A stretch of 37,099 bases of DNA. Origin: a virus. Made by a program: the position numbers and the translations under genes. The stretch lies in the IMG/VR virus record IMGVR_UViG_3300036985_002254, positions 1-37,099 of that record. The stretch is one strand, 5' to 3'. The notes beneath the pieces were generated by a model. The model ran no database searches and was not told where the DNA came from. It saw only the letters and a list, made by a program, of their open reading frames with translations. Below are positions 2,233 through 36,940 of this stretch, in pieces (position 1 is the stretch's first letter; every line of letters starts with the position of its first letter).

Positions 2233-2347
2233 GATGCACCTGCATAGCGTTCTCGTTGCGTATCTCATCTGCACGCTGTAAGAAGTTAATTAACTCCGTG
2301 TTCTGTAGGTCTTTCTTCGTTAGTAAGAACTCATCACGCTTTGCCAT
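2225..2347 (-). CDS. 40-residue charged mini-protein, first of chain
   Basis: This is the first gene of the coupled chain. Its ATG at 2347 has GAGG 6 nt upstream. The product is hydrophilic and helical (KRDEFLLTKKDLQNTELINF). Its leader holds two overlapping hairpins, described separately, which could control the whole chain. No family is recognised. Confidence 0.7.
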   Translation of the reverse strand: MAKRDEFLLTKKDLQNTELINFLQRADEIRNENAMQVHHE

Positions 2348-2360
2348 AAAATTCCTCTTA

Positions 2361-2405
2361 CCCCTTTATTAGGGGCTACGAGAACGACTACGTTTGACCG
2401 TAGCC
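2361..2405 (-). promoter_or_regulatory. Overlapping alternative hairpins before the mini-gene chain
   Basis: In the leftward transcript, just before the ribosome binding site of the 2347 gene, CCCCT (2375-2371) can pair with AGGGG (2365-2361). A longer pairing GGCTACG (2405-2399) with CGTAGCC (2380-2374) uses two of the same bases. A nearer CGTAG (2393-2389) can also pair with the first CTACG. The pairings exclude one another, so this could be a translational switch. Whether it forms is untested. Confidence 0.35.
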
Positions 2406-2474
2406 TTTCCCCACATTAACGCGCATGGAGCGTCATGTGATAGTCGCACGCTCACCCATACACGTATATACGAT

Positions 2475-2772
2475 TCATTCGACGTTGTTCTCGTCATAGT
2501 CGGCTAGGGGCTTTAACGAGAACTCCGACGACAATTCATTCGGACTTCTCTCTGGCGGGATTACAGTTTTATCACCGTTATGCAGGGCGATGGTTCGACG
2601 TTATTAGCGTCTGCTCATCACCGATGCTACCCGCCTGCTACAGGACTGGAACGACGGCGCGATTGAACGCGCTCGACTATCAACGAAAGGTTTACTCCCG
2701 AACTCCCTACGGTCTAACGACGTAGCCCAACGACAAAAGCCATTGAAGCACAGACGTTCTCGCCTCGTTCAT
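2475..2772 (-). pseudogene. Frameshifted or decayed gene, several short frames
   Basis: An ATG at 2772 (TAATG overlap with the upstream gene) opens a 21-residue frame (MNEARTSVLQWLLSLGYVVR) ending at 2707. Downstream, coding-like pieces continue in successive frames, among them NLSLIVERVQSRRRSSPVAG, SIGDEQTLITSNHRP and a final piece ending LADYDENNVE at 2475. The breaks fall near GGCGGG and CGCCC runs. Read together they would make a protein of about 95 residues. The cause could be decay, indel errors in the sequence, or a set of overlapping mini-ORFs. Confidence 0.4.
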
Positions 2773-3080
2773 TACGGGAGCATTGACTGTCGCTTTCTGA
2801 CGTGGCTCTGACGTTGAATAGCCCGCGTTCGTTGATTGACGAACACCGACTTCTCAGACGTGGTTGCTCTCGAAGAATCGACGCTGCCCTTTGAATAGCG
2901 AGGGCGATTTGTCAGGCGTTGATTCGACGTTATCGACTTATCGCCACTGGCGTTTAATAACGTCTTATGGTGGCGTGCATTTACGTCATACTCGACGACT
3001 TTCACGACGATAATCTCGTCGTTGCAGTCCTGCTCAACCTCTTGCTCCGTCGCACAGCATCCGAGGATTTCGGTAATCAT
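2772..3080 (-). CDS. 102-residue early protein, basic C-terminal half
   Basis: The ATG at 3080 overlaps the stop of a 16-residue leader ORF by ATGA. The first 40 residues are acidic with three Cys (CCATEQEVEQDC then NDEIIVVKVVEYDV). The rest is basic and Ser/Arg/Gln-rich, ending in RQSHVRKRQSMLP. The change in composition near residue 60 could mean a disordered tail or a frame that is only partly coding. The stop is coupled by TAATG to the broken frame downstream. No family is recognised. Confidence 0.5.
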   Translation of the reverse strand: MITEILGCCATEQEVEQDCNDEIIVVKVVEYDVNARHHKTLLNASGDKSITSNQRLTNRPRYSKGSVDSSRATTSEKSVFVNQRTRAIQRQSHVRKRQSMLP

Positions 3081-3127
3081 GCCGTGCCCATCGCCATTTG
3101 CGGGGCGTTGTGCTGCATCGCAGCCAT
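3077..3127 (-). CDS. 16-residue leaderless leader peptide
   Basis: The ATG lies 19 nt after a TTTAAATA box, so the transcript is expected to start at or within a few bases of it. The peptide is MAAMQHNAPQMAMGTA. It has no SD but feeds by ATGA overlap into the 102-residue gene, as a leader peptide would. The expected length and spacing are the evidence; a shadow reading is possible. Confidence 0.45.
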   Translation of the reverse strand: MAAMQHNAPQMAMGTA

Positions 3128-3146
3128 ACTCTGTTTGTTGCGAAAG

Positions 3147-3161
3147 TATTTAAACCTTCGC
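3147..3161 (-). promoter_or_regulatory. Archaeal promoter: BRE plus TTTAAATA
   Basis: The minus strand reads GCGAAGG followed by TTTAAATA, a good match to the purine-rich BRE plus TATA arrangement. The 14-base core AGGTTTAAATACTT is repeated exactly at the 3510 promoter. A TCCGACGTGAA motif (3163-3173) lies just upstream, and a CCCTTTGAAAGGG inverted repeat (3180-3192) beyond that. Confidence 0.7.
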
Positions 3162-3179
3162 TTTCACGTCGGAAGTCCG

Positions 3180-3192
3180 CCCTTTGAAAGGG
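3180..3192. repeat. Inverted repeat CCCTTTGAAAGGG near promoter
   Basis: Six-base arms flank one central base, about 25 bp upstream of the leftward TATA box at 3147-3154. The position suits an operator or activator site. No regulator can be matched to it. Confidence 0.35.
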
Positions 3193-3292
3193 TTGCTATC
3201 CTTCGCGTTTACTGGTGGTGTGAAGGACGAACCTACACACCTATACCCTCTAACGGTAGTGAGCCGTATTATCGTCAGAGAAAGGGTAGGGA

Positions 3293-3487
3293 TTATCGTC
3301 TTAAGGCTATCCTGCCATGAGCGAACTTATCCCCATTCTCGTACTGTCTGAATACGCTCTCTATTACGTACGTATTTACGTAGCGTACTGCATTAGCGCG
3401 TGTACGTAGGGGAATACGCACGACAGATGGTACGTCGTTAGTCCTCATCTGTCCTGCCTTCTGGTTTTGGTCAGCGATTTTTTGCAT
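3293..3487 (-). CDS. 64-residue basic early protein, leaderless
   Basis: The ATG at 3487 lies 22 nt after a TTTAAATA box, the expected distance for an archaeal leaderless start. The product is basic (segments MQKIADQNQKAGQMRTND, VRIPLRTRANAVRYVNTYV), suggesting contact with nucleic acid. The frame also extends upstream of the TATA box, but that part is G-rich and does not look coding. No family is recognised. Confidence 0.6.
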   Translation of the reverse strand: MQKIADQNQKAGQMRTNDVPSVVRIPLRTRANAVRYVNTYVIESVFRQYENGDKFAHGRIALRR

Positions 3488-3509
3488 GATACCAACTTGG
3501 ACTCGGAAG

Positions 3510-3521
3510 TATTTAAACCTG
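3510..3521 (-). promoter_or_regulatory. Archaeal TATA box TTTAAATA
   Basis: The minus strand has AGGTTTAAATACTT, identical over 14 bases to the promoter at 3147. The start codon at 3487 follows after 22 nt. The upstream element CCGGC is a weaker BRE than that of the other copy. Confidence 0.65.
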
Positions 3522-3822
3522 CCGGTCTCGTCTGAGCCACTGACGTGTCCGACGTGTTTGTCGTCTGAGTCACCCCGAAGCACAGACGGTTTCTCCGACG
3601 AACCTCGGACACCCCGAAGCCCACGTCGAACAAAACCCACTTTCCCACCTGACCACGACGTTCGGTTTTACTCCCTCAGGCGTTACCAGACGGTCACTGA
3701 CGGTGCGCGCCCACCCCCCACCGACGAAGCCCACAGACGAGCCGAACGCGTGCGCGTTACCCTACGCTATGGCGTATGCCTGGAGTTATTTATATTATTA
3801 ATATTTATTTTCCTTATCCCAT
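3522..3822. other. Non-coding divergent control region, left part
   Basis: About 300 bases have no convincing gene on either strand. The minus strand is G-rich, with GTGGGCTTCG repeated near 3621 and 3728. A TCCGACGTG motif lies at 3548-3556. The right end (3783-3815) is strongly AT-rich (runs of TTATTTATATTATTAATATT type), which would melt easily. It separates the leftward early genes from the rightward late genes and could hold operators or a replication origin; that is inference. Confidence 0.5.
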
Positions 3823-3841
3823 AGCATAAGACAATTATGCT
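3823..3841. repeat. Inverted repeat AGCATAA-GACAA-TTATGCT
   Basis: Perfect 7-base arms flank a 5-base loop between the AT-rich stretch and the GC-rich tract. It could be an operator, a hairpin terminator or part of an origin. A copy of TCCGACGTG (3845-3853) follows within four bases. Confidence 0.45.
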
Positions 3842-3860
3842 TTCTCCGACGTGCGTCAGG

Positions 3861-3979
3861 ACGTGCGTGTGTGCGCATGCCCGCCTGTGCGCCCGCCTGT
3901 GTGCGCCTGCGCCCACGCCTGCGCCTGCCTGCGTGTGCGGGTGCGTGTGTGCGCGTATGTGCGCGTATGTGCGCGCGCG
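3861..3979. repeat. GC-rich alternating purine-pyrimidine tract, Z-DNA-prone
   Basis: Positions 3861-3880 and 3941-3979 alternate purine and pyrimidine without a break (20 and 39 bases). Between them lie a 12-base tandem repeat (CCCGCCTGTGCG twice from 3880) and other GCGCCTGC-type repeats. A 10-base unit, GCGCGTATGT, is repeated at 3951 and 3961. Such DNA favours the Z form. The three overlapping plus-strand open frames here are compositional artefacts. The tract sits upstream of the late operon. Confidence 0.75.
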
Positions 3980-4004
3980 AGGCGAAAAATCGGACGCATC
4001 CGGG

Positions 4005-4125
4005 CCTCTATATATATAAGCAGCCCTCTACGCAAAATTTTTCAGAAATTTCAACTCTCCTCCCTCGTGCACGACGTAGATAATATTAACCAATCCATAT
4101 AAATGCAGGGAAAACGTTTAAATAA
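4005..4125 (+). promoter_or_regulatory. Candidate late-operon promoter region
   Basis: Three rightward TATA candidates precede the first late gene: TATATATATAA at 4009-4019, TATAAA within 4095-4103, and GTTTAAATA at 4116-4124 with an upstream GGGAAAAC that resembles a BRE. The last is the best match to the consensus, but it would start transcription about 9 nt inside the 4138 gene. The earlier ones fit better for that gene. A TCGTGCACGA palindrome lies at 4065-4074. Which one is used cannot be told from sequence. Confidence 0.5.
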
Positions 4126-5124: not shown

Positions 5125-6580
5125 AGAGTTTGACACCAAGGATGGCTACGAATACGCCTCCACTGTTCTCCGTATGCGCAACGATCCCATCTGGTTCCTA
5201 AAGGAACACTGTGGGGTCGAACTCTTTCCAGTGCAGGAAGAGATGATGCGGGAGTTCTACCGCAACAAATACAATCCCTCACTGACCCCTTATAAGCACC
5301 TGATACTTGCGCTCGGCATGCGTTCGGGTAAAACAGCCATGAGTGGTATGTTTGGTGCAATCGAGATGATGGACATCTGTACAATCTCAAATCCATCAAA
5401 GCACTACGGCTTACTTAAAGGACAAGGTATCGCGCTTCTCGCTCTTGCCACATCTCTCGATCAGGCATTGGAGGGAGTCTATGGTAATACTTGTAACCTG
5501 CTCGAAGGATCCGACTTCGTACAATCATGGATGGACTTTAAGTTTAAAACTGATACCATCGAGTGCATCGATAAGAACGTCTTCTTTAAGGCGCTCGGAT
5601 CATGGGCATCTACAGCAGTTGGTCGTTCAGCCAAAGCAGTCTTCTTTGATGAACTGGATAACTTCGAGGATACAACCAGCAAACGAGGTGCTGTTGAGGT
5701 TTATAGCCGAGTTATCAAGGCAACTGATACTCTCGGAAGTGATGGTCACACATTTGCTCTGTCGTCGTTAAAATCTCCGACGGGTATTATGATGAACCTC
5801 TGTAAGGATGCAGAGGATGAGAAGCGCCGTTATGGTGATCTTTGTCGCTCACTCGCGTATATTCGTCCTACATGGGAAGTAAATCCTCATTTCACTAAAG
5901 AAGATCTCATGCGTGAACACGAAGGTAACCTCGCAGCATTCTGGCGAGACTTCGGGTGTCAGCCGTCGATCTACAACTCACTCGCATTCCCCAACGGTGT
6001 AGTGCTTGAGCCAATGACGAACGTCTTGCACACGCCACCTATCTCCTGTGATAACCAACCATATCGTGTGATGGCAATCGACCCAGCAGTTAAGAAGGAT
6101 GCCTTTGGTATCGCCTGCGGTTATCGGGCTGCATCTGGTAAGATTATTATTGATGGTGTGCACAAGTTCACCAAGAAAGAAGGAAACATCATGATTATGC
6201 CGTCGGAAATCGACGCTTATCTCAATCGTGTTCTCCCAACATTAAATATTAAAGTATTCTTATATGATACGTGGATGTACCCTCATATCCTTGAGAACGT
6301 CATGAAGCGTGGAATTAAATTAGAACAGCACATTGTAAACCATAAGAGTTACGAAGCATGGCTGGATCTCGAATCAAACAACCGTCTCTCCGTTGTTTAT
6401 AGCGACGATCTTCGTCTTGAATGCGATAAACTCGTCGTATTCCCTGGAGCAAAGCCTAAGGTCGATCACCCTAGCACTGGTTCAAAGGATATGGCTGATT
6501 GTTGTGCCAATTGTATAGAGTATCTTCATGATAATAAAATATCAACCGCTCCAAAAATATCAGGACTTAGGGGATTCTAA
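5096..6580 (+). CDS. terL: Terminase large subunit (packaging ATPase and nuclease)
   Basis: This 494-residue protein shows the full terminase plan. The ATPase has Walker A GMRSGKT (residues 74-80), Walker B AVFFDELD (181-188) and a coupling motif ALSSLKSP (221-228). The RNase H-like nuclease has D329 in VMAIDPAV, D391 in FLYDTW, and D465/D468 in SKDMAD. It docks on the portal, pumps DNA into the head and cuts the concatemer. The ATG at 5096 follows AGAAAGAAC, and the gene ends in TAATG shared with the HNH gene behind it. Confidence 0.97.
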   Translation: MAVKTKISREEFDTKDGYEYASTVLRMRNDPIWFLKEHCGVELFPVQEEMMREFYRNKYNPSLTPYKHLILALGMRSGKTAMSGMFGAIEMMDICTISNPSKHYGLLKGQGIALLALATSLDQALEGVYGNTCNLLEGSDFVQSWMDFKFKTDTIECIDKNVFFKALGSWASTAVGRSAKAVFFDELDNFEDTTSKRGAVEVYSRVIKATDTLGSDGHTFALSSLKSPTGIMMNLCKDAEDEKRRYGDLCRSLAYIRPTWEVNPHFTKEDLMREHEGNLAAFWRDFGCQPSIYNSLAFPNGVVLEPMTNVLHTPPISCDNQPYRVMAIDPAVKKDAFGIACGYRAASGKIIIDGVHKFTKKEGNIMIMPSEIDAYLNRVLPTLNIKVFLYDTWMYPHILENVMKRGIKLEQHIVNHKSYEAWLDLESNNRLSVVYSDDLRLECDKLVVFPGAKPKVDHPSTGSKDMADCCANCIEYLHDNKISTAPKISGLRGF

Positions 6581-7032
6581 TGAGAAAGCGAGCAACCAGT
6601 TGCACAAAATGTGGAGCAGAGTTAGATAATAAAAATTATTCAATTTGTAAGAAATGTCTAGCAGATTATGGAAGGGATTATAGACTCGCTAGATTTTCAG
6701 ACAAATCACGTAGAGTACGTGCATGGGCAATCTCTACATTGGGAGATCATAAACGAAAAGGATTTAATGTATTGATTACAGTTGATGAATTATGCAAATA
6801 TGCTATGACAATAGATAACTGTGAATATACAGATGAACCATTAAACTGGTTTTCACAGGGAAGACCCACTGCAAATTCTCCTAGTTTGGATAGATTGAAT
6901 AATGAAGATGTATTAAATATTGATAATATAAGAATAATCTCATATAAGATGAATGCAATGAAGCGTGATCTTACATTTAAAGATTATATAAAACATTGTA
7001 AATTTATGGTAGATAAGTTCGGAGATAGTTAA
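6580..7032 (+). CDS. Degenerate HNH endonuclease after terL
   Basis: This 150-residue protein keeps the N-terminal zinc knuckle (C8/C11 and C23/C26) and the active-site-like stretch SPSLDRLNN. However, the two pairs of Cys that hold the treble clef in its paralogues are changed: CPxCG is CEYTD here, and CxxCNxxK is SYKMNAMK. It is AT-rich compared with terL and is joined to it by TAATG. It was probably a homing endonuclease; activity is doubtful unless the fold is held without zinc. Confidence 0.8.
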   Translation: MRKRATSCTKCGAELDNKNYSICKKCLADYGRDYRLARFSDKSRRVRAWAISTLGDHKRKGFNVLITVDELCKYAMTIDNCEYTDEPLNWFSQGRPTANSPSLDRLNNEDVLNIDNIRIISYKMNAMKRDLTFKDYIKHCKFMVDKFGDS

Positions 7033-11215: not shown

Positions 11216-11737
11216 ATGAAGTGTATTCATTGTAATGAAACTAAAGAATTGTCAGAGTTTTATAATTCTGATTTAAAGTGTAGCAATTATGTGTGTAAAA
11301 GTTGTCGAAGTAAAATTTCAAGACATAATTATACAATAAACAAGAATGCAAACCCAGACTTACATAGAGAAATGAGAAAGGAAATTTATAATAGATGGAA
11401 ACAGAAAAATCCTAAATATAGTTGGGCGCATACAACGAGAGACAAACATAAAAGAAATGGATATGATGTAAAGTTTACTACAAAGGAATTAGTAAATTTT
11501 ATTAAAGATATTAAAGTATGTCCTTATTGTGGAACTGAATTTGATTTTTCAGTAAATCCAAATAAATCATTGAGTCAAAGACCTACTTTAGATAGAATTG
11601 ATAATGAACAGATTATGACATTAAAAAATATACAAGTGTTATGTCATAGTTGTAATACAATGAAGGGTCAATTCCCACATAATAAATTTTTAGATAAAAT
11701 TAAACTAATTTTAAGTAGGTGTAGTTATGGCGATTGA
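11216..11737 (+). CDS. HNH endonuclease after capsid gene
   Basis: This 173-residue protein has an N-terminal knuckle (C3/C6, C27/C30), then CPYCG, the active-site stretch RPTLDRIDN and CHSCNTMKGQ. All zinc ligands are intact. The gene is much more AT-rich than the capsid gene and uses A/T-ending codons, a sign of separate origin. It has almost no ribosome binding site and starts three bases after the T run, so expression is probably low. Its last 11 bases overlap the next gene. Confidence 0.88.
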   Translation: MKCIHCNETKELSEFYNSDLKCSNYVCKSCRSKISRHNYTINKNANPDLHREMRKEIYNRWKQKNPKYSWAHTTRDKHKRNGYDVKFTTKELVNFIKDIKVCPYCGTEFDFSVNPNKSLSQRPTLDRIDNEQIMTLKNIQVLCHSCNTMKGQFPHNKFLDKIKLILSRCSYGD

Positions 11738-12842: not shown

Positions 12843-13192
12843 TTATCGCTGACATTGCAAAAGCACTACAGTCACATAAATATAAAGTAGACACAATGTT
12901 CGTCAATAAGGAAGGCCCAGATCACGTATCAGTCGTCCTCGGTGGTATTGATCCGATGCTTGAAACAGGCTCGACTTACCTTCCCGAAATTGAAGTACAT
13001 ATAGTTTTCTTTAAAACTGATGGAGATGAAATCGTCGAACAAGTAAAGGATATCATAGAAATAGTTCATGAAGATGTAGTCCTTACTAACTATCATCACT
13101 TTCGGTTTGATAGTATAGATATTAATGCAACAAATAACGACATTGAAGTAACAATGGTTATAAAATATAGGGATGTGATTAATCTTGGTTAA
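12839..13192 (+). CDS. Putative tail terminator protein
   Basis: This 117-residue alpha/beta protein (SVVLGGIDPMLETGSTYLPE, then paired strands) lies directly before the tail tube, where tail-completion proteins usually sit. It would cap the tube and join it to the head. It begins with ATGA overlap and ends inside the next gene. The role comes from order and size. Confidence 0.55.
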   Translation: MIIADIAKALQSHKYKVDTMFVNKEGPDHVSVVLGGIDPMLETGSTYLPEIEVHIVFFKTDGDEIVEQVKDIIEIVHEDVVLTNYHHFRFDSIDINATNNDIEVTMVIKYRDVINLG

Positions 13193-14072
13193 TTATGTAA
13201 AGGTTGGAACTGAATCAACATTCGGAACTCATGTTACCACGGCTGGTATCACTGTGTCCGACGTATCGCTCGATATTGATCGCTCTCTTATGATTGAGGA
13301 GAATATTGATAACTACATCGCCGCAACTGCGTATGGTGGAGCACTCAAAGTATCAGGAACCATTGAAGGAACTGTTCGTCCAAAGCAACTCGAACTCTTC
13401 CTGAAGTCTTTCATGGGAGATGCTACTGGGCCATATACGTTCGGTGTTCCCACGTCGATGTCAATTGATATCGGCGAGGAACTGATGAATCAGGAAACTC
13501 AACTCGTTGGTTGTGGTATTTCTAAACTTTCTCTGAAGTTCGCAGCAAAGGAGTTTGCTACTTTCACCGCAGATTTCTTCGCAAAGAACTACTCGCTTAC
13601 TACTTTCTCGGAGCCAACTACCGCTGCTGAGGATCCAGCGATCTTCTACAACGCATCGCTCTCAATTGGTGGAACCGCATCCACTGAGATTAAAGAAATT
13701 ACTCTCGATATGGATCGTAAACTCGACGATGACAATTTCGTTCTCAACGACTATACGCTTCACCGCCTTGCTCGTACTGGTGTAACTTCCGTCACTGGAA
13801 CTATTACATTCACCGAGATGGCGTTTGATGAGTATAAGCGTGCAATCACTGGTAGCACGACTGGTACTGCCGTAGATGCTAATAACACCGTGGGAAGCGT
13901 GGCGCTAATCATTACATGCACTGGCATGACTGGAACTACATCACTTACGATCTCTCTCCCTGTATCAGTTTATGGCAAGGGTGGAAAGAAGATTTCAAAG
14001 GTTTCAGAGATTGAGAAAACAGTAGACTTCACTGCAACTGGTAGTGGTGTAACATTCACGGTGGCTGCATAA
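13185..14072 (+). CDS. Major tail tube protein
   Basis: This 295-residue, beta-rich, Thr/Ser/Gly-rich protein starts at a TTG, since no in-frame ATG fits; GGATGTGA lies upstream. Two similar halves each carry the pattern VSDVSLDIDR/IKEITLDMDR followed by a strand-rich segment, consistent with an internally duplicated tube fold. Codon use is biased as in the capsid gene. Its place before the frameshifted chaperone is the standard one for the tail tube of long-tailed viruses. Confidence 0.85.
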   Translation: MVNYVKVGTESTFGTHVTTAGITVSDVSLDIDRSLMIEENIDNYIAATAYGGALKVSGTIEGTVRPKQLELFLKSFMGDATGPYTFGVPTSMSIDIGEELMNQETQLVGCGISKLSLKFAAKEFATFTADFFAKNYSLTTFSEPTTAAEDPAIFYNASLSIGGTASTEIKEITLDMDRKLDDDNFVLNDYTLHRLARTGVTSVTGTITFTEMAFDEYKRAITGSTTGTAVDANNTVGSVALIITCTGMTGTTSLTISLPVSVYGKGGKKISKVSEIEKTVDFTATGSGVTFTVAA

Positions 14073-14073
14073 T

Positions 14074-14424
14074 ATGGCAATGTATTTTGATATCGAGACT
14101 CCAAGTGGAGTCGTAAAGGTAAGGAAACCAATGGGGCGTATGGGTACGCTTCATCTTGGTATTATTACCAAGTTTATGCCTGCAAACAAGAAGGCTGAAG
14201 GAGATCCACTTTCTCCGATGGAACAGGAACGTATTGGACAGGGTTTTGAGGAATGGGCAGCAAGAGTTCTTCCTGGCATTCTCGTCTCATTCACACCAAA
14301 AGGAGAACCATCTCCGCTTCCTGTTGTAACCATCGACGATCTCTCTGGCGAAGACCAGTATGGTATCTTCCTTGCTATCTGTTCGACTATGGAAAAGTCT
14401 GACGGATTCTTTCGGATTCTTTAA
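14074..14424 (+). CDS. Tail assembly chaperone, upstream frame (G-like)
   Basis: This 116-residue protein lies between the tail tube and tape measure genes, where the lambda G/GT-type chaperone sits. It ends IL-stop, with the stop directly after a CTT codon. It would bind the tape measure during tail assembly. The stop overlaps a second frame that continues the protein by a +1 shift. Confidence 0.8.
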   Translation: MAMYFDIETPSGVVKVRKPMGRMGTLHLGIITKFMPANKKAEGDPLSPMEQERIGQGFEEWAARVLPGILVSFTPKGEPSPLPVVTIDDLSGEDQYGIFLAICSTMEKSDGFFRIL

Positions 14425-14602
14425 ACCAGAATTAAAGGTTGCATTGGGTTCGCTTGCCAAAGATACTGGCAATCGGCCATCAGATTTAGTTTCTTGGACT
14501 GATGAAGAAGATTGGTTTAACAGACTAATGTTTGATTTTAATATAATGAATGCATATCACGACGCAGAAAATAAAGCAATGAAGAAAGCATCAAAGAGGT
14601 GA
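14419..14602 (+). CDS. Tail chaperone, downstream frame reached by +1 frameshift (GT-like)
   Basis: This frame has no good start of its own; the ATG at 14360 lies inside the upstream gene without a ribosome binding site. A +1 slip on CTT (14419-14421) just before TAA would read on into KPELKVALGSLAKDT and on to 14602, giving a 175-residue fusion. CTT followed by a stop is the well-known +1 site type of bacterial prfB. GGATTCTTT is repeated in tandem (14404-14423), and removing one 10-base copy also restores the frame. Tail chaperones of this class are typically frameshifted. Confidence 0.75.
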
Positions 14603-18134: not shown

Positions 18135-18293
18135 ATGAACGCAACAGAAACCTCCAACACAATAGTCACGCTGGACATTTACCATTATCGCAATGGAGTC
18201 CTTCTGGAGCACGTTAAACCGTACTCTGAGGCATCGCTGATTGAACGAGTCCTTTTCCATGTAGGACTGAAAAATCTAACAAGGAGCGCATAA
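18135..18293 (+). CDS. 52-residue small protein
   Basis: The ATG has GGTGATTC immediately upstream. The product is 52 residues with a mixed strand-helix pattern (TIVTLDIYHYRNGVLLEHV). Its stop and AAGGAG feed directly into the next gene. No family is recognised. It is too short for standard length filters. Confidence 0.6.
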   Translation: MNATETSNTIVTLDIYHYRNGVLLEHVKPYSEASLIERVLFHVGLKNLTRSA

Positions 18294-28560: not shown

Positions 28561-29687
28561 TATTTCACCAACCTAACCTTGTTACCTGCTCTTTCGATCA
28601 TATTGAAACGAACCATGTCATTCAGGACTGAGTTCATCTGCTCTGCGTTCCAACCGACCATCGTACACTCGGAAGCAAGCATCTGCGTGTTTGTTGCGCC
28701 ACCGAGAATCTTAATCATATTCTTCATCAGACCAAGATCGACACCGAGGTTAATCTCAAGTCTCCATTCCTTCTCACGGTTGAGAAGTTCCTTCAGTTCA
28801 GTGTTGATGGTGAGTTCCATCTTCTTCTTTGCGCCGAACTTTGCAAGATTATATCCGAGGATTAACTGATCGTATAACTGCGCCTCGAAACTAAAGATTC
28901 CCATTCGCTCGTAGAGGTCAAGAATCTCATCGGGATATTCAATCCTATCAATTGTGTTCATACTCGCTACGAAACTCTTATTCATATTCTGAATCTTGAG
29001 CATCTCGGATGGATCCGGCTTAATGTTCTTTGCATTGTGCCGTGCTTCCATGATCATCTTATTATCCTTCCGTGTAGGCATGAAAAGCATGTAACAGAAC
29101 CTACGACCAAGACCAGACGACATATCAATCTTGGCTGGCTGAACTCCTGTCCAAAGAGTAAGGCGAGTATCGTACTCGTGCATACCCGAGGCCAGACGCT
29201 TAACTACGTGACCGCCATCGAGAATGGTAAGCAACTGCGAGTCCATCTGATTATTAGTCGATGACTTCATCGCTTGGGTGATGCCACTGAACTCATCAAT
29301 GAGCATCATACCCTCGTTGTAAATTGCTGCTGCGCCTGGAACAAACCTCGGCTCACCAAAACCATCCTTACCAATCGTTCCAACAAGACCTGCTTCGGTC
29401 ATGGACTGCTCGTATCCCACTTTGATTCCAGTGTTGTTGAAAATTCCCACAGTCGGATCTCCAGCCATATTAGTTAAGTAATATGATTTCATGAATCCGG
29501 CTGGACTCACGAAGAGGATAGGAAGACTGCTATTAAGAATCTTCTTTCCTTCATAAAAAATCTTCCTTTTATTATTCATGAGATTGAAAACGTGCGTTGC
29601 ATATGAAATTGTATAGAATGGAGCAAACGTCTCATATTTATACGCCTTGCGATCTTTCATTTCTTCGAGAACCATATCATATATCAT
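28560..29687 (-). CDS. mcm: MCM-like AAA+ ATPase core (replicative helicase)
   Basis: This 375-residue protein has a Walker A variant SPAGFMKS (61-68), the MCM-style stretch PGAAAIYNEGMMLIDEFSGI (118-136 region) containing Walker B, a beta-hairpin-like HVVKRLASG, a sensor strand RLTLWTG and an arginine finger GLGRRF (192-197). A winged-helix-like C-terminus follows (EQMNSVLNDMVRFNMIERAG). MCM unwinds DNA at archaeal forks. The N-terminal DNA-binding domain of normal MCM (about 250 residues) is absent. GAGGAG precedes the ATG, which overlaps the LAGLIDADG gene (ATGA). Confidence 0.82.
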   Translation of the reverse strand: MIYDMVLEEMKDRKAYKYETFAPFYTISYATHVFNLMNNKRKIFYEGKKILNSSLPILFVSPAGFMKSYYLTNMAGDPTVGIFNNTGIKVGYEQSMTEAGLVGTIGKDGFGEPRFVPGAAAIYNEGMMLIDEFSGITQAMKSSTNNQMDSQLLTILDGGHVVKRLASGMHEYDTRLTLWTGVQPAKIDMSSGLGRRFCYMLFMPTRKDNKMIMEARHNAKNIKPDPSEMLKIQNMNKSFVASMNTIDRIEYPDEILDLYERMGIFSFEAQLYDQLILGYNLAKFGAKKKMELTINTELKELLNREKEWRLEINLGVDLGLMKNMIKILGGATNTQMLASECTMVGWNAEQMNSVLNDMVRFNMIERAGNKVRLVK

Positions 29688-30082
29688 TTTAAACTCCTCA
29701 TTTCATTATAAATATCTTCTCTATCTTTGAGATAAGTGATCGGCACTCTACCACCATATATAATTGTATTCTGGAAAAACAATCCCAACATTAATTCCTC
29801 TCGTTTAATTATTGAATATGGTAAGATTTCACAAATAACCATCGCTGCTTCTTTACCACGAACCGTTAATGTATAAATCGGTTTATCTTTGTAGGTTTTA
29901 CTTTCAAAGATGCTACCAACTTCAAATATATTCTTAATTTTAATAATAGCATCGAGATTTGTATTAGTGACACTTATCATTAACCCATAATAAGTATTCT
30001 TTGTTCGAGTCATCTTATGTATATGAACACAACCTTCACCATCAATTAATCCTGCTGCCCACGCAATATCAGTTTCTTTCAT
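29684..30082 (-). CDS. LAGLIDADG homing endonuclease, single motif
   Basis: The motif AAGLIDGEGCVHI lies near the start, so the 132-residue protein would act as a dimer. The ATG at 30082 with GGTGAT upstream is preferred to the ATG at 30139, which overlaps the nuclease gene. It ends ATGA into the helicase gene. It sits between two replication genes as a free-standing gene; no intein features are seen. Confidence 0.88.
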   Translation of the reverse strand: MKETDIAWAAGLIDGEGCVHIHKMTRTKNTYYGLMISVTNTNLDAIIKIKNIFEVGSIFESKTYKDKPIYTLTVRGKEAAMVICEILPYSIIKREELMLGLFFQNTIIYGGRVPITYLKDREDIYNEMRSLK

Positions 30083-30128
30083 ACTATCACCATAGTTTAA
30101 TAAGCGAACAAAAATCGCTGAGTGGTAA

Positions 30129-30755
30129 TTATACCACATTAAGCATTGTTAAAATCTTTTTTGATTTAACTGCCCCAATACCTTTAGTCTTTGCGAGTTC
30201 ACTGGATGTTATTTTTGCTATCTTTGTGAGTGAACCATATTTTTGATGAATCTCTATATACTGAGGAATAGTAATACCAAGATACCGTGCGATTAACGCC
30301 TCTGGATGAGCCTTTGTGGGAACAGAAAGATTGCCTTCATCTACATTCTCCATGTATCCCACCATCACATTCAATGCGTCTTTCTCGTCCTCAATCCAGA
30401 TAATCTCAAAGTTATATCGACAAGCGATATCATCAATGCACGAGTAGATAATCTTCTCGTTGATGAACTTCTTATACCTGCGCATGGATTTGACATACTC
30501 GGATAAGGATCCAGTAATAAGGAGTACAAGTTTCATATCATCGAATTGCGCCATCCGATTAACCTGTGACCAGATGCGCTTGTCCATGATGCTCCCATAG
30601 AGATCTCCTATCTTCTTGCGTTCACAAAGAACTTTAGTGCTTCGGTAATCTCCCTCTTTCAGAGTAGCCAACTGAAACTTCGTCTTTGGAAAAGTCTTCT
30701 GTAAATACTTAATTATTGTTTTGGGTTCGCGTGTATCCACGTCAATTGAAGTCAT
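30129..30755 (-). CDS. XPF/Hef-type ERCC4 nuclease with HhH tail
   Basis: This 208-residue protein has DTREP at residue 7, then GDYRSTKVLCERKKIGDL (35-52), the GDx-ERKxxxD metal site of ERCC4 nucleases (D36, E45, R46, K47, D51). The C-terminal helix-hairpin-helix (KTKGIGAVKSKKIL, about 190-203) binds DNA. Such archaeal enzymes cut branched or forked DNA, often with PCNA. No helicase domain is attached. It overlaps the upstream gene by ATGA. Confidence 0.92.
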   Translation of the reverse strand: MTSIDVDTREPKTIIKYLQKTFPKTKFQLATLKEGDYRSTKVLCERKKIGDLYGSIMDKRIWSQVNRMAQFDDMKLVLLITGSLSEYVKSMRRYKKFINEKIIYSCIDDIACRYNFEIIWIEDEKDALNVMVGYMENVDEGNLSVPTKAHPEALIARYLGITIPQYIEIHQKYGSLTKIAKITSSELAKTKGIGAVKSKKILTMLNVV

Positions 30756-31160: not shown

Positions 31161-31474
31161 CGAGTCCACCCAGTTATTGTTGTTCTTATATCATTAACAA
31201 TGGACTGAGGCTCTAACTTTCTCTCATATTTATCTATATTATTTTTTATTGTAGATAATGCAGAGTCTAATTCATTGCGATCAGGAAGTATGAATACTTC
31301 ACCACGTGGAACTTCTGTACTTCTTAATGCAATACAATATGATGTACCATGTGCATTTACAGACATACAATCCTCATCTTCACCTCTAGCAGTTCCAATT
31401 ACTATTTTCCACCCTCTATATTCTCCCAACTCCGTTTGTACGGAATCTATTGTTTCTGGGTATCCATTCATCAT
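31157..31474 (-). CDS. 105-residue protein, function unknown
   Basis: This alpha/beta protein has paired strands (GWKIVIGTARGEDEDCMSV, SYCIALRSTEVPRGEVFIL) and a helical C-terminus. It is overlapped by ATGA on both sides. No family is recognised. Confidence 0.7.
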   Translation of the reverse strand: MMNGYPETIDSVQTELGEYRGWKIVIGTARGEDEDCMSVNAHGTSYCIALRSTEVPRGEVFILPDRNELDSALSTIKNNIDKYERKLEPQSIVNDIRTTITGWTR

Positions 31475-32070
31475 CGCACCTTTCCGTCTCCCAGATAGTA
31501 ATTACCATCTGCGAAGATGATAACATTCGCCAAGATGAGTTCCTCTACAAGTCCATAGAGAACATTATCTAACTGTGCGTGGACGTTACCGTGCTCGCTG
31601 GGTGAACTACATACGAACAAATTCTTCGGGTGGTTATCTTTCTTATTGAGGTTGATGTGGTGAACGTGCTCCCAAGGTTTGAGTTTTCTGCCAGCCACAA
31701 TCTCTGCCACCTGTCTGTAGTTACGAATCGCTCCTGTAGACATAAAATCATATTCATTATACGGAACCTCGTGTGTTAATCCTTTAATCAACTTCGACTT
31801 CATCTTACGAACGGATGTAGTCGTTCTACCCATCTTCTCTGCGATCTCTTTATTTGGGAGAGTCATCAATGATTTCAGCATACGAATATTCGCATACGTC
31901 CAGAAGCGCTTATTAGTAACGGTACGACAACCATACTTTGAGAGTCCAAGTTTTTTAACCCTCGACTCTACTGCTTCCTCACTATGACCGACCCATTTTG
32001 CCAACTCATATGAGTTCATCTCAAGATAATGATTCTGTAAAAATATATCTTGAACTTCAGTCCACTTCAT
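31471..32070 (-). CDS. HNH endonuclease with Myb/HTH-like N-terminus
   Basis: This 199-residue protein contains two helix-turn-helix-like segments (WTEVQDIFLQNHYLEMNSYE and NKEIAEKMGRTTTSVRKMKS). They resemble SANT/Myb-like DNA-binding modules. An HNH domain follows (EHVHHINLNKKDNHPKNLFV, then SEHGNVH). It differs from the DRxxN-type HNH group here. It is probably a free-standing homing endonuclease. The stop is coupled to the next gene by ATGA. Confidence 0.85.
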   Translation of the reverse strand: MKWTEVQDIFLQNHYLEMNSYELAKWVGHSEEAVESRVKKLGLSKYGCRTVTNKRFWTYANIRMLKSLMTLPNKEIAEKMGRTTTSVRKMKSKLIKGLTHEVPYNEYDFMSTGAIRNYRQVAEIVAGRKLKPWEHVHHINLNKKDNHPKNLFVCSSPSEHGNVHAQLDNVLYGLVEELILANVIIFADGNYYLGDGKVR

Positions 32071-35788: not shown

Positions 35789-36507
35789 AATTCTACTTCC
35801 TCAGGTTTACACATTCCACAGTACGAAAACATCACCATCGAACACGAGCGCGGGAACACATTCATTTCAAGTGCGTCGCGGAGTGCTGCAATCTGTCTAT
35901 CTACTGTCGTCATACTTCGCTTCGGGATATCATAAGTCTCCGCCTTCTGCAACACCGGATTGATGATACGGCATGTTGTCGCTGGAAGTGTCGGATTAAC
36001 TTCATCCCAGAGTTTCTTATAAAGTGCTGACTGCAACTTAATAGACGCTGGTTTAATCTTCGCTCCTGTTTTATATTCAACAATACAAACGCTTTTCTTA
36101 TCCTCGTTCAAATCTACACGGTCAATAAAACCAGTGAGATACTGAACTGGACTTTTAAGTTTCTTCTCTACGCAGAGAGGATACCAAAGATCGCGTCCAA
36201 GTTTCTTTAACTGTTCATCCTCGTATTCAAGGAACCACCGAGCATTATCTTTCTCTGCTTCCGTGAATGTCTTTGGGATACATTCTTCCCAACTTCCTAC
36301 AGTAAGCATATCGTTATGAAGAATAAACTTCTCCGCCCAATCATGGAATCTCGTACCGAGTTCCATCGCTGGTGAAGGAGGTGTTCGTATCTTCTTGATA
36401 TAACGCAGATAGAACTGTCGAGGACAGATGTTGAAAGTTTCCAACTGACTCTTTGATATATACCAAGTAGCTGCATCAATATTATGATTTTCAAGTTTTT
36501 CCGTCAT
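35785..36507 (-). CDS. Cas4/RecB-like PD-(D/E)XK nuclease with Fe-S cysteines
   Basis: This 240-residue protein has all the parts of the Cas4/AddB group: C28 (CPRQFYLRY), H55 (GTRFHDW), D129 (GFIDRVD), E144-x-K146 (VEYKTG), the QxxxY-like Q159/Y163, and C222, C230, C233 (SC.. then YCGMC), which with C28 would hold a 4Fe-4S cluster. Such enzymes resect DNA ends. There is no CRISPR array near, so a role in viral replication or recombination is likely. GTGAG precedes the ATG. Confidence 0.9.
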   Translation of the reverse strand: MTEKLENHNIDAATWYISKSQLETFNICPRQFYLRYIKKIRTPPSPAMELGTRFHDWAEKFILHNDMLTVGSWEECIPKTFTEAEKDNARWFLEYEDEQLKKLGRDLWYPLCVEKKLKSPVQYLTGFIDRVDLNEDKKSVCIVEYKTGAKIKPASIKLQSALYKKLWDEVNPTLPATTCRIINPVLQKAETYDIPKRSMTTVDRQIAALRDALEMNVFPRSCSMVMFSYCGMCKPEEVEL

Positions 36508-36940
36508 GTCTACTCACTACATTTCTACAATATTCAACAAACTCCTTAAACGTTCTATTGGATTTAGTGGTGTTGCATTTATTGCAAATAATCCAAATAT
36601 TATTTTCCCGTATGGCAGACTCATTATTGATTCTATCAAGAGTTTTATCTTTATCTGAAATAAATTTGGTTCCACAAATAGGACACTCTTTGACAGATGT
36701 AAACAAATTCTCAACGAATTTTATAGAGACACAGATATTATATCCACAATCTCTATGGTGTCTAATAGAATCTTTAGATTTAAACTGCATTAAATTATTT
36801 TTTCTATGTACACGTTGCCGTTGCACATTACATAGTTTACATCTAGTATCATATCCATCTGTACGACTTGAATCTTTTCCGAAATCAGATAAATCTTTAA
36901 TTTCTGAGCAGATAGAGCATCGTCTACGAGTATCAGTCAT
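36491..36940 (-). CDS. HNH endonuclease between PCNA and Cas4-like nuclease
   Basis: This 149-residue protein has C8/C11 and C34/C37 in the N-terminal knuckle, CPICGTKF, the active-site stretch KTLDRINN and ICNKCNTTKSN. All ligands are intact. It is AT-rich, overlaps the PCNA stop by 8 bases and the nuclease gene by 17. It belongs to the same group as the genes at 329, 6580 and 11216. Confidence 0.88.
   Translation of the reverse strand: MTDTRRRCSICSEIKDLSDFGKDSSRTDGYDTRCKLCNVQRQRVHRKNNLMQFKSKDSIRHHRDCGYNICVSIKFVENLFTSVKECPICGTKFISDKDKTLDRINNESAIRENNIWIICNKCNTTKSNRTFKEFVEYCRNVVSRHDGKT

Follow-up and report, generated by a model that had tools for sequence, protein, structure and literature searches.

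Recoding in archaea has so far been demonstrated only in the form of -1 frameshifting and stop-codon readthrough, with +1 frameshifting suggested for one halovirus, according to a 2021 review (PMC8211752). Among the archaeal tailed viruses, HCTV and HVTV-1 use a -1 shift while HSTV-2 probably uses +1 (PMC5009743, PMC8211752); the tail assembly chaperone of HSTV-2 (KC117376) is annotated as a joined coding sequence whose shift was called very likely +1 (PMC5009743). A TTT-CGC sequence has also been noticed in haloviruses of the HF1 group and linked to a motif of eukaryotic viruses by Dyall-Smith and colleagues in 2020 (PMC7230728). In influenza A virus, mass spectrometry pinned the PA-X site to UCC_UUU_CGU, and the authors predicted a wider class of sites that prefer CGN (PMC3498833). 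Such a site has likewise been put forward for chronic bee paralysis virus, fijiviruses and amalgaviruses. Here we describe a putative tail assembly chaperone gene in the IMG/VR virus record IMGVR_UViG_3300036985_002254, which was analyzed over its full 37,099 bases (hereafter the window). The gene consists of two overlapping open reading frames, TACa and TACb, that would be joined by a +1 frameshift at a TTT_CGG sequence.

A candidate +1 slip site in the tail chaperone gene

TACa lies between the tail tube gene and the tape measure gene, the latter called by its position and by comparison with the relative G309, and the arrangement of a short frame followed by a frameshift extension that characterizes the G/GT chaperones is present in the window. 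The 3' end of TACa reads GGA TTC TTT CGG ATT CTT TAA. In our judgment the best explanation of this locus is very probably a +1 slip at TTT_CGG that yields a chaperone pair of the lambda G/GT type. Most ribosomes would translate TACa and stop at the TAA at 14422, giving a G-like protein, while a fraction would stall where UUU (14410-14412) is paired with tRNA-Phe and the A site contains CGG, a rare codon. The P-site tRNA-Phe would re-pair one base forward, from UUU to UUC, and translation would go on in the +1 frame as GGA TTC TTT AAA CCA. The predicted product is a TACa-TACb fusion with a C-terminal T-like domain bearing a GxRPSD motif, an analogue of lambda gpGT. Sequence comparison establishes how the genes are arranged, that both the +1 offset and TTT_CGN are conserved, and that selection switches frame at this site; we infer the ribosomal slip, its P-site mechanism, the ratio of the two products and the chaperone function.

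The junction between the two frames could be read in 14 relatives, comprising 13 virus records and G309, and the second open frame lies in +1 in all of these except G566. Together with the window and HSTV-2, the 13 relatives with a +1 second frame form an aligned set of 15 records. G565 is a near-duplicate of G567, as is G570 of G571, and identity among the four G309-like viruses is 60-88%, so that we count about nine lineages, HSTV-2 included. Outside the G309 group the fused proteins are mostly 14-36% identical and 43% at most, and they have in common a GxRPS motif that is weak or absent in HSTV-2.

Each of the 15 records has exactly one in-frame TTT_C in TACa, always inside the overlap of the open frames, and CGN follows the TTT in 14 of them. 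The context is TTC TTT CGG in the window, TTG TTT CGA in G560, AAG TTT CGC TGA in G555, TCG TTT CGC in G564, TCA TTT CGT in G563, ACC TTT CGC in G565 and G567, TCC TTT CGA in G570 and G571, and TCC TTT CGC in HSTV-2 as well as in G309, G556, G557 and G558; the remaining record, G559, has TTC TTT CAG. The overlap is just 23 nt long in G555 and G570/G571, yet it contains TTT_CGC or TTT_CGA. Within the overlap of the window, TTT_CGG is the only P-site codon that re-pairs with its own tRNA in +1, besides a Leu codon far upstream (CTT to TTG). The 69,454 codons of these genomes include 19 cases of in-frame TTT_CG, to which the sites themselves contribute, and the chance of finding one is about 0.4-1% per overlap in the nine lineages.

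Selection on the two frames was followed in G309, G556, G557 and G558. Sorted by frame-0 codon position, substitutions number 67/26/88 over the 120 nt that precede TTT_C; over the 33 nt that follow, where TACa is still open, they number 28/6/0. For the 11 codons after TTT_C, the ratio of nonsynonymous to synonymous substitution (dN/dS) is 0.08 for the +1 frame as against 4.45 for frame 0. In these four relatives the frame under purifying selection changes immediately behind TTT_C, with 11-12 codons of TACa still to come, which argues that ribosomes enter +1 at TTT_C or just ahead of it rather than at the stop. TTT_CGN therefore appears to be kept beyond what the amino acid sequence needs, with selection changing frame there in the four relatives examined.

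The same switch contradicts, for the G309 group, both a stop-dependent slip and reinitiation at a later ATG. It bears on the alternative that TACb is made separately, by internal initiation or by termination and reinitiation, with no frameshift at all. The +1 frame does hold start codons (ATG at 14360, TTG at 14444 and ATG at 14528), where an initial annotation of this sequence had seen none, and the G309 group keeps an ATG just past the TACa stop. However, the strong +1 selection falls between TTT_C and that ATG, the +1 frame of G555 and G570 opens just 23 nt before the TACa stop, and TTT_CGN would be conserved for no other evident reason, so that we regard separate synthesis of TACb as highly improbable.

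The exceptional relative G566, a sister of G565 and G567, provides a natural control for a slip at TTT_CGN. It has lost TTT_CGC, and its second open frame is in -1 behind CTA AAA AAA ACG (L151:2840-2925), with the homologous T domain retained. The frame of this T domain directly encodes Y-F-A-K-S-L-I-G, and the +1 slip model predicts T-F-A-N-S-L-I-G in G565 and G567; the predicted junction residues thus agree. In G566 a poly-A -1 site has taken the place of the +1 TTT_CGC site, a natural switch of frameshift direction.

Even if Phe-Arg were fixed by the protein, the probability of TTT and CGN in all nine lineages would be 2e-7. Several points weigh against a slip at TTT_CGG. The lineages are related by descent, so that multiplied probabilities overstate the significance. 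CGN is not absolute either, as TTT_CAG stands in its place in G559, which is among the two nearest relatives. CGG is the rarest Arg codon of the window (1.9 per 1000), but HSTV-2 uses CGC, its commonest Arg codon, and a rare A-site codon is thus no general rule. Additionally, the frame-switch test covers four fairly close relatives, the window itself not being among them, a conserved RNA structure was looked for downstream (3') and none was found, and the slip is deduced from sequence comparison. Transcriptional slippage was considered as another route and rejected, the T run being just three long. Taken together, it is well supported that the tail-chaperone +1 signal is real and biologically meaningful and that TTT_CGG is a better slip site than the one first proposed.

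The CTT TAA terminus and the 10-bp tandem repeat

The initial annotation had recognized a programmed +1 frameshift at the tail-assembly-chaperone locus of an archaeal virus, which agrees with our analysis, and had overlooked TTT_CGG. It placed the slip at the CTT TAA that indeed closes TACa, proposing a prfB-type signal, in which a slow stop codon would stimulate the slip. Slippage at CTT_T would lead to the same +1 frame and add 59 residues, as had been stated. Ribosomes that get past TTT_CGG could also slip at CTT_TAA, which may act as a backup site in the window. As the principal site it is very unlikely, since among the 15 aligned records CTT before the TACa stop is unique to the window, the last sense codon in the relatives being AGC, GGC, CGC, GAC, GTA, AAG or GAA, and +1 selection begins well upstream of that stop in the four relatives examined. 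Such a slip would also need a Leu tRNA mispaired on UUU, and no Shine-Dalgarno-like or purine-rich element is found just upstream of CTT, which is preceded by TTTCGGATT. Thus, the CTT-stop of a prfB-type signal is present but is accompanied by neither its conservation nor such a stimulator.

The slip site lies within a perfect two-copy tandem of CGGATTCTTT, the 10-base-period duplication of the initial annotation. No other perfect tandem with a period of 7-30 and a run of at least 10 occurs in the coding part of the window. First-order Markov simulation gives an expectation of 0.07 such repeats of any period, with period 10 in 0 of 60 simulations, and the duplication is rarer than chance. The perfect repeat is not conserved among the relatives; G560 has GAATTGTTTC GAATTGTGGA, a 7/10 match in the same register, which may be the remnant of an older duplication that has decayed or may reflect a common coding constraint.

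Because the repeat is perfect and of a rare kind, and because deleting one copy fuses the two frames, as the initial annotation correctly noted, it could be argued that a recent 10-bp duplication or an assembly error broke a single-frame gene that involves no recoding. This account has a very slim chance of being correct, as relatives that lack the repeat share the +1 offset, a fused single frame, which the initial annotation had named as evidence against the frameshift, was found in none of them, and a 10-bp insertion into a +1 ancestor would give -1 and not +1. Ribosome hopping from TTT at 14410 to TTT at 14420, with 10 nt skipped, has matching take-off and landing codons in the window. But the 7/10 repeat of G560 offers no TTT landing codon, the other relatives have no repeat, and +1 slippage accounts for all of them; we give hopping almost no credence. 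Judging from these relatives, the repeat does not explain the frameshift, and neither duplication nor hopping holds as a general explanation. The initial annotation had proposed a comparison with related viruses for conservation of CTT TAA or of the repeat; it is TTT_C that they conserve instead.

Chaperone assignment, relatives and genomic setting

The features of the tail module are collected in Table 1. TACa has no Pfam or PHROG match. An AlphaFold model of TACa alone (pLDDT 82) has a folded domain followed by a disordered tail exactly at residues 108-116, the slip codon being residue 113. When this model was searched with Foldseek, the named viral matches were mostly tail assembly chaperones but weak, the best being a chaperone from a Mycobacterium phage at E=3e-3; many other chaperones ranked lower, and none reached E<=1e-3. 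The chaperone label consequently rests mainly on gene position and arrangement, from which a chaperone function of TACa and TACb is the probable one. The gene after TACb encodes a product with no Pfam or PHROG family match of its own, and the tape measure protein of G309 in the same position (L112:12700-14436) has a PHROG match at E=1.2e-27.

Table 1. Tail module features in the window
Feature	Position	Strand	Basis or remark
Major tail tube protein	13185..14072	+	Pfam PF18906 Phage_tube_2 E=1.9e-17; PHROG 290 E=2.7e-24
TACa, putative G-like tail assembly chaperone, frame 0, 116 aa	14074..14424	+	Position between tail tube and tape measure; homologues in 14 relatives; AlphaFold model
TTT_CGG, predicted +1 slip site (P-site TTT, A-site CGG)	14410..14415	+	Only in-frame TTT_C of TACa; TTT_CGN in 14/15 aligned records
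Perfect 10-bp tandem repeat, CGGATTCTTT x2, spanning the slip site	14403..14422	+	Repeat scan; compared with chance and with relatives
CTT TAA, end of TACa, slip site of the initial annotation	14419..14424	+	Not conserved
TACb open frame (+1), T-like extension	14330..14602	+	Stop 14600-14602; predicted translated part 14414-14602, 62 aa after the slip
G-x-R-P-S-D motif of the T-like domain	14468..14485	+	Kept in relatives: R, P and D69 invariant, G nearly invariant
Putative short tape measure protein, 422 aa	14606..15874	+	Position and relative G309

Single-protein scans of viral contigs with TACa, the tail tube protein and TerL gave no relative. A TerL alignment search yielded only relatives at 22-27% that have no tail module and were set aside, and a tail-tube alignment search of viral contigs was unproductive. 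G309, a provirus in an archaeal genome, was found with the tube protein among 393 genomes belonging to the same phylum as a Methanosarcina. Its genes for tube, TACa, TACb (+1) and tape measure follow the order of the window, and its helicase is 33% identical to that of the window. An alignment of these two MCM helicases led to 4 virus records and one of four sequences to 13 more, and tube-protein matches in 15 of these 17 gave the tail locus. No chaperone adjoins the tube gene in G561 and G562. The more distant archaeal proviruses G177 and G231, as well as PhiCh1 and psiM2, were rejected as members, their second open frame being in -1. Two adjacent tail-tube-like genes occur in tandem in G565 (G565:C1:49223-51173) and G567 (G567:C1:36344-38294). 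The MCM-like helicases of G557 and G558 (L126:8897-10882 and L127:10001-11533) are interrupted at one and the same P-loop position by insertions that keep the frame but differ in length, PPGF|CLDP...VHN|SKS, with ends as expected of inteins.

The window also encodes an MCM-type helicase, an ERCC4 nuclease, a Cas4-like PD-(D/E)XK nuclease and a class II ribonucleotide reductase (RNR). In a pattern scan, the relatives of this RNR were mainly from Methanosarcina and other archaea (best about 52%), with no usable virus relative. These relatives and the MCM-bearing provirus in an archaeal genome support an archaeal host.

Positions 2300-4100 form a long GC-rich (0.51) stretch with few credible genes that is rich in CGAC/GACG, has several short tandem repeats and contains an archaeal TATA-like AAGTATTTAAACC near 3147 and 3508; it is possibly an origin or a regulatory region. 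ARAGORN predicts a tRNA-Phe with the unusual anticodon AAA at 2648-2724 (-). We rejected it as a partner of the Phe slip codon, as no Rfam tRNA match backs the prediction. Open frames resembling HNH endonucleases in sequence are present at 221-856, 6580-7032, 11216-11737, 31471-32070 and 36491-36940, of which only 31471-32070 was checked against families, giving a weak HNH_3 match, and a LAGLIDADG-like open frame (29684-30139) overlaps the start of the MCM gene. These frames suggest that the window holds many homing elements.

Comparison with known recoding signals

Phage lambda G/GT shares with the window the gene position and the logic of two products, a short protein and a T-domain fusion, but lambda shifts by -1 on a slippery heptamer and the window would shift by +1 on UUU_C. 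Bacterial prfB (CUU_UGA) and Listeria phage PSA (CCC_UGA) share the +1 direction, whereas an Arg codon occupies the A site in the window. HSTV-2 has a probable +1 fusion with AAG TCC TTT CGC AGA at the junction, and its protein has no usable sequence identity to that of the window. The HF1 group is similarly composed of archaeal tailed viruses with a chaperone between tube and tape measure, a +1 fusion being needed and TTT-CGN having been proposed. However, these are halophilic myoviruses and the proposal rested on six close genomes with no selection test, whereas the group of the window is very divergent and non-halophilic, with a gene content like that of siphoviruses. It is well supported that the window site is a further member of this already suggested kind. 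What is added over the earlier proposal is a divergent non-halophilic group, codon and selection tests, a sister with a -1 site, and the motif in HSTV-2 and HFTV1; no priority is claimed for the HSTV-2 site. In HFTV1, gp36 and gp37 (L161:17690-18308) overlap and are annotated separately, with gp37 in +1 and GGG TTT CGC in the overlap (TTT_CGC at 18161), and they are probably one frameshifted chaperone gene. Such sites show where annotation should join two frames that current pipelines treat as separate genes.

The closest parallel in sequence is PA-X, which has the same UUU_C P-site slip, CGN as A-site codon, +1 direction and lack of a clear 3' stimulator. As at PA-X-type sites, the window has an in-frame UUU_C followed by CGN inside the overlap and a conserved downstream +1 frame (-1 in the sister G566). 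The differences are that the known cases are unrelated genes of eukaryotic RNA viruses and that the window is a DNA virus translated by an archaeal ribosome. We tentatively put forward, at somewhat below an even chance, that UUU_CGN is the usual and probably old +1 chaperone signal across archaeal tailed viruses (the MCM-bearing group, Hafunaviridae and Haloferuviridae), a recoding signal shared between Archaea and eukaryotes, with the window site maybe reinforced by the 10-bp repeat and a backup CTT_TAA. The -1 second frames of PhiCh1 and psiM2 indicate that UUU_CGN would be common but not universal in archaeal caudoviruses. If this is true, archaeal ribosomes respond to the same motif as eukaryotic ones, which can now be tested in cultured models such as HFTV1 or HSTV-2. 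The comparative data place the +1 event of deeply diverged archaeal viruses at one tetranucleotide, a site first defined in influenza virus.
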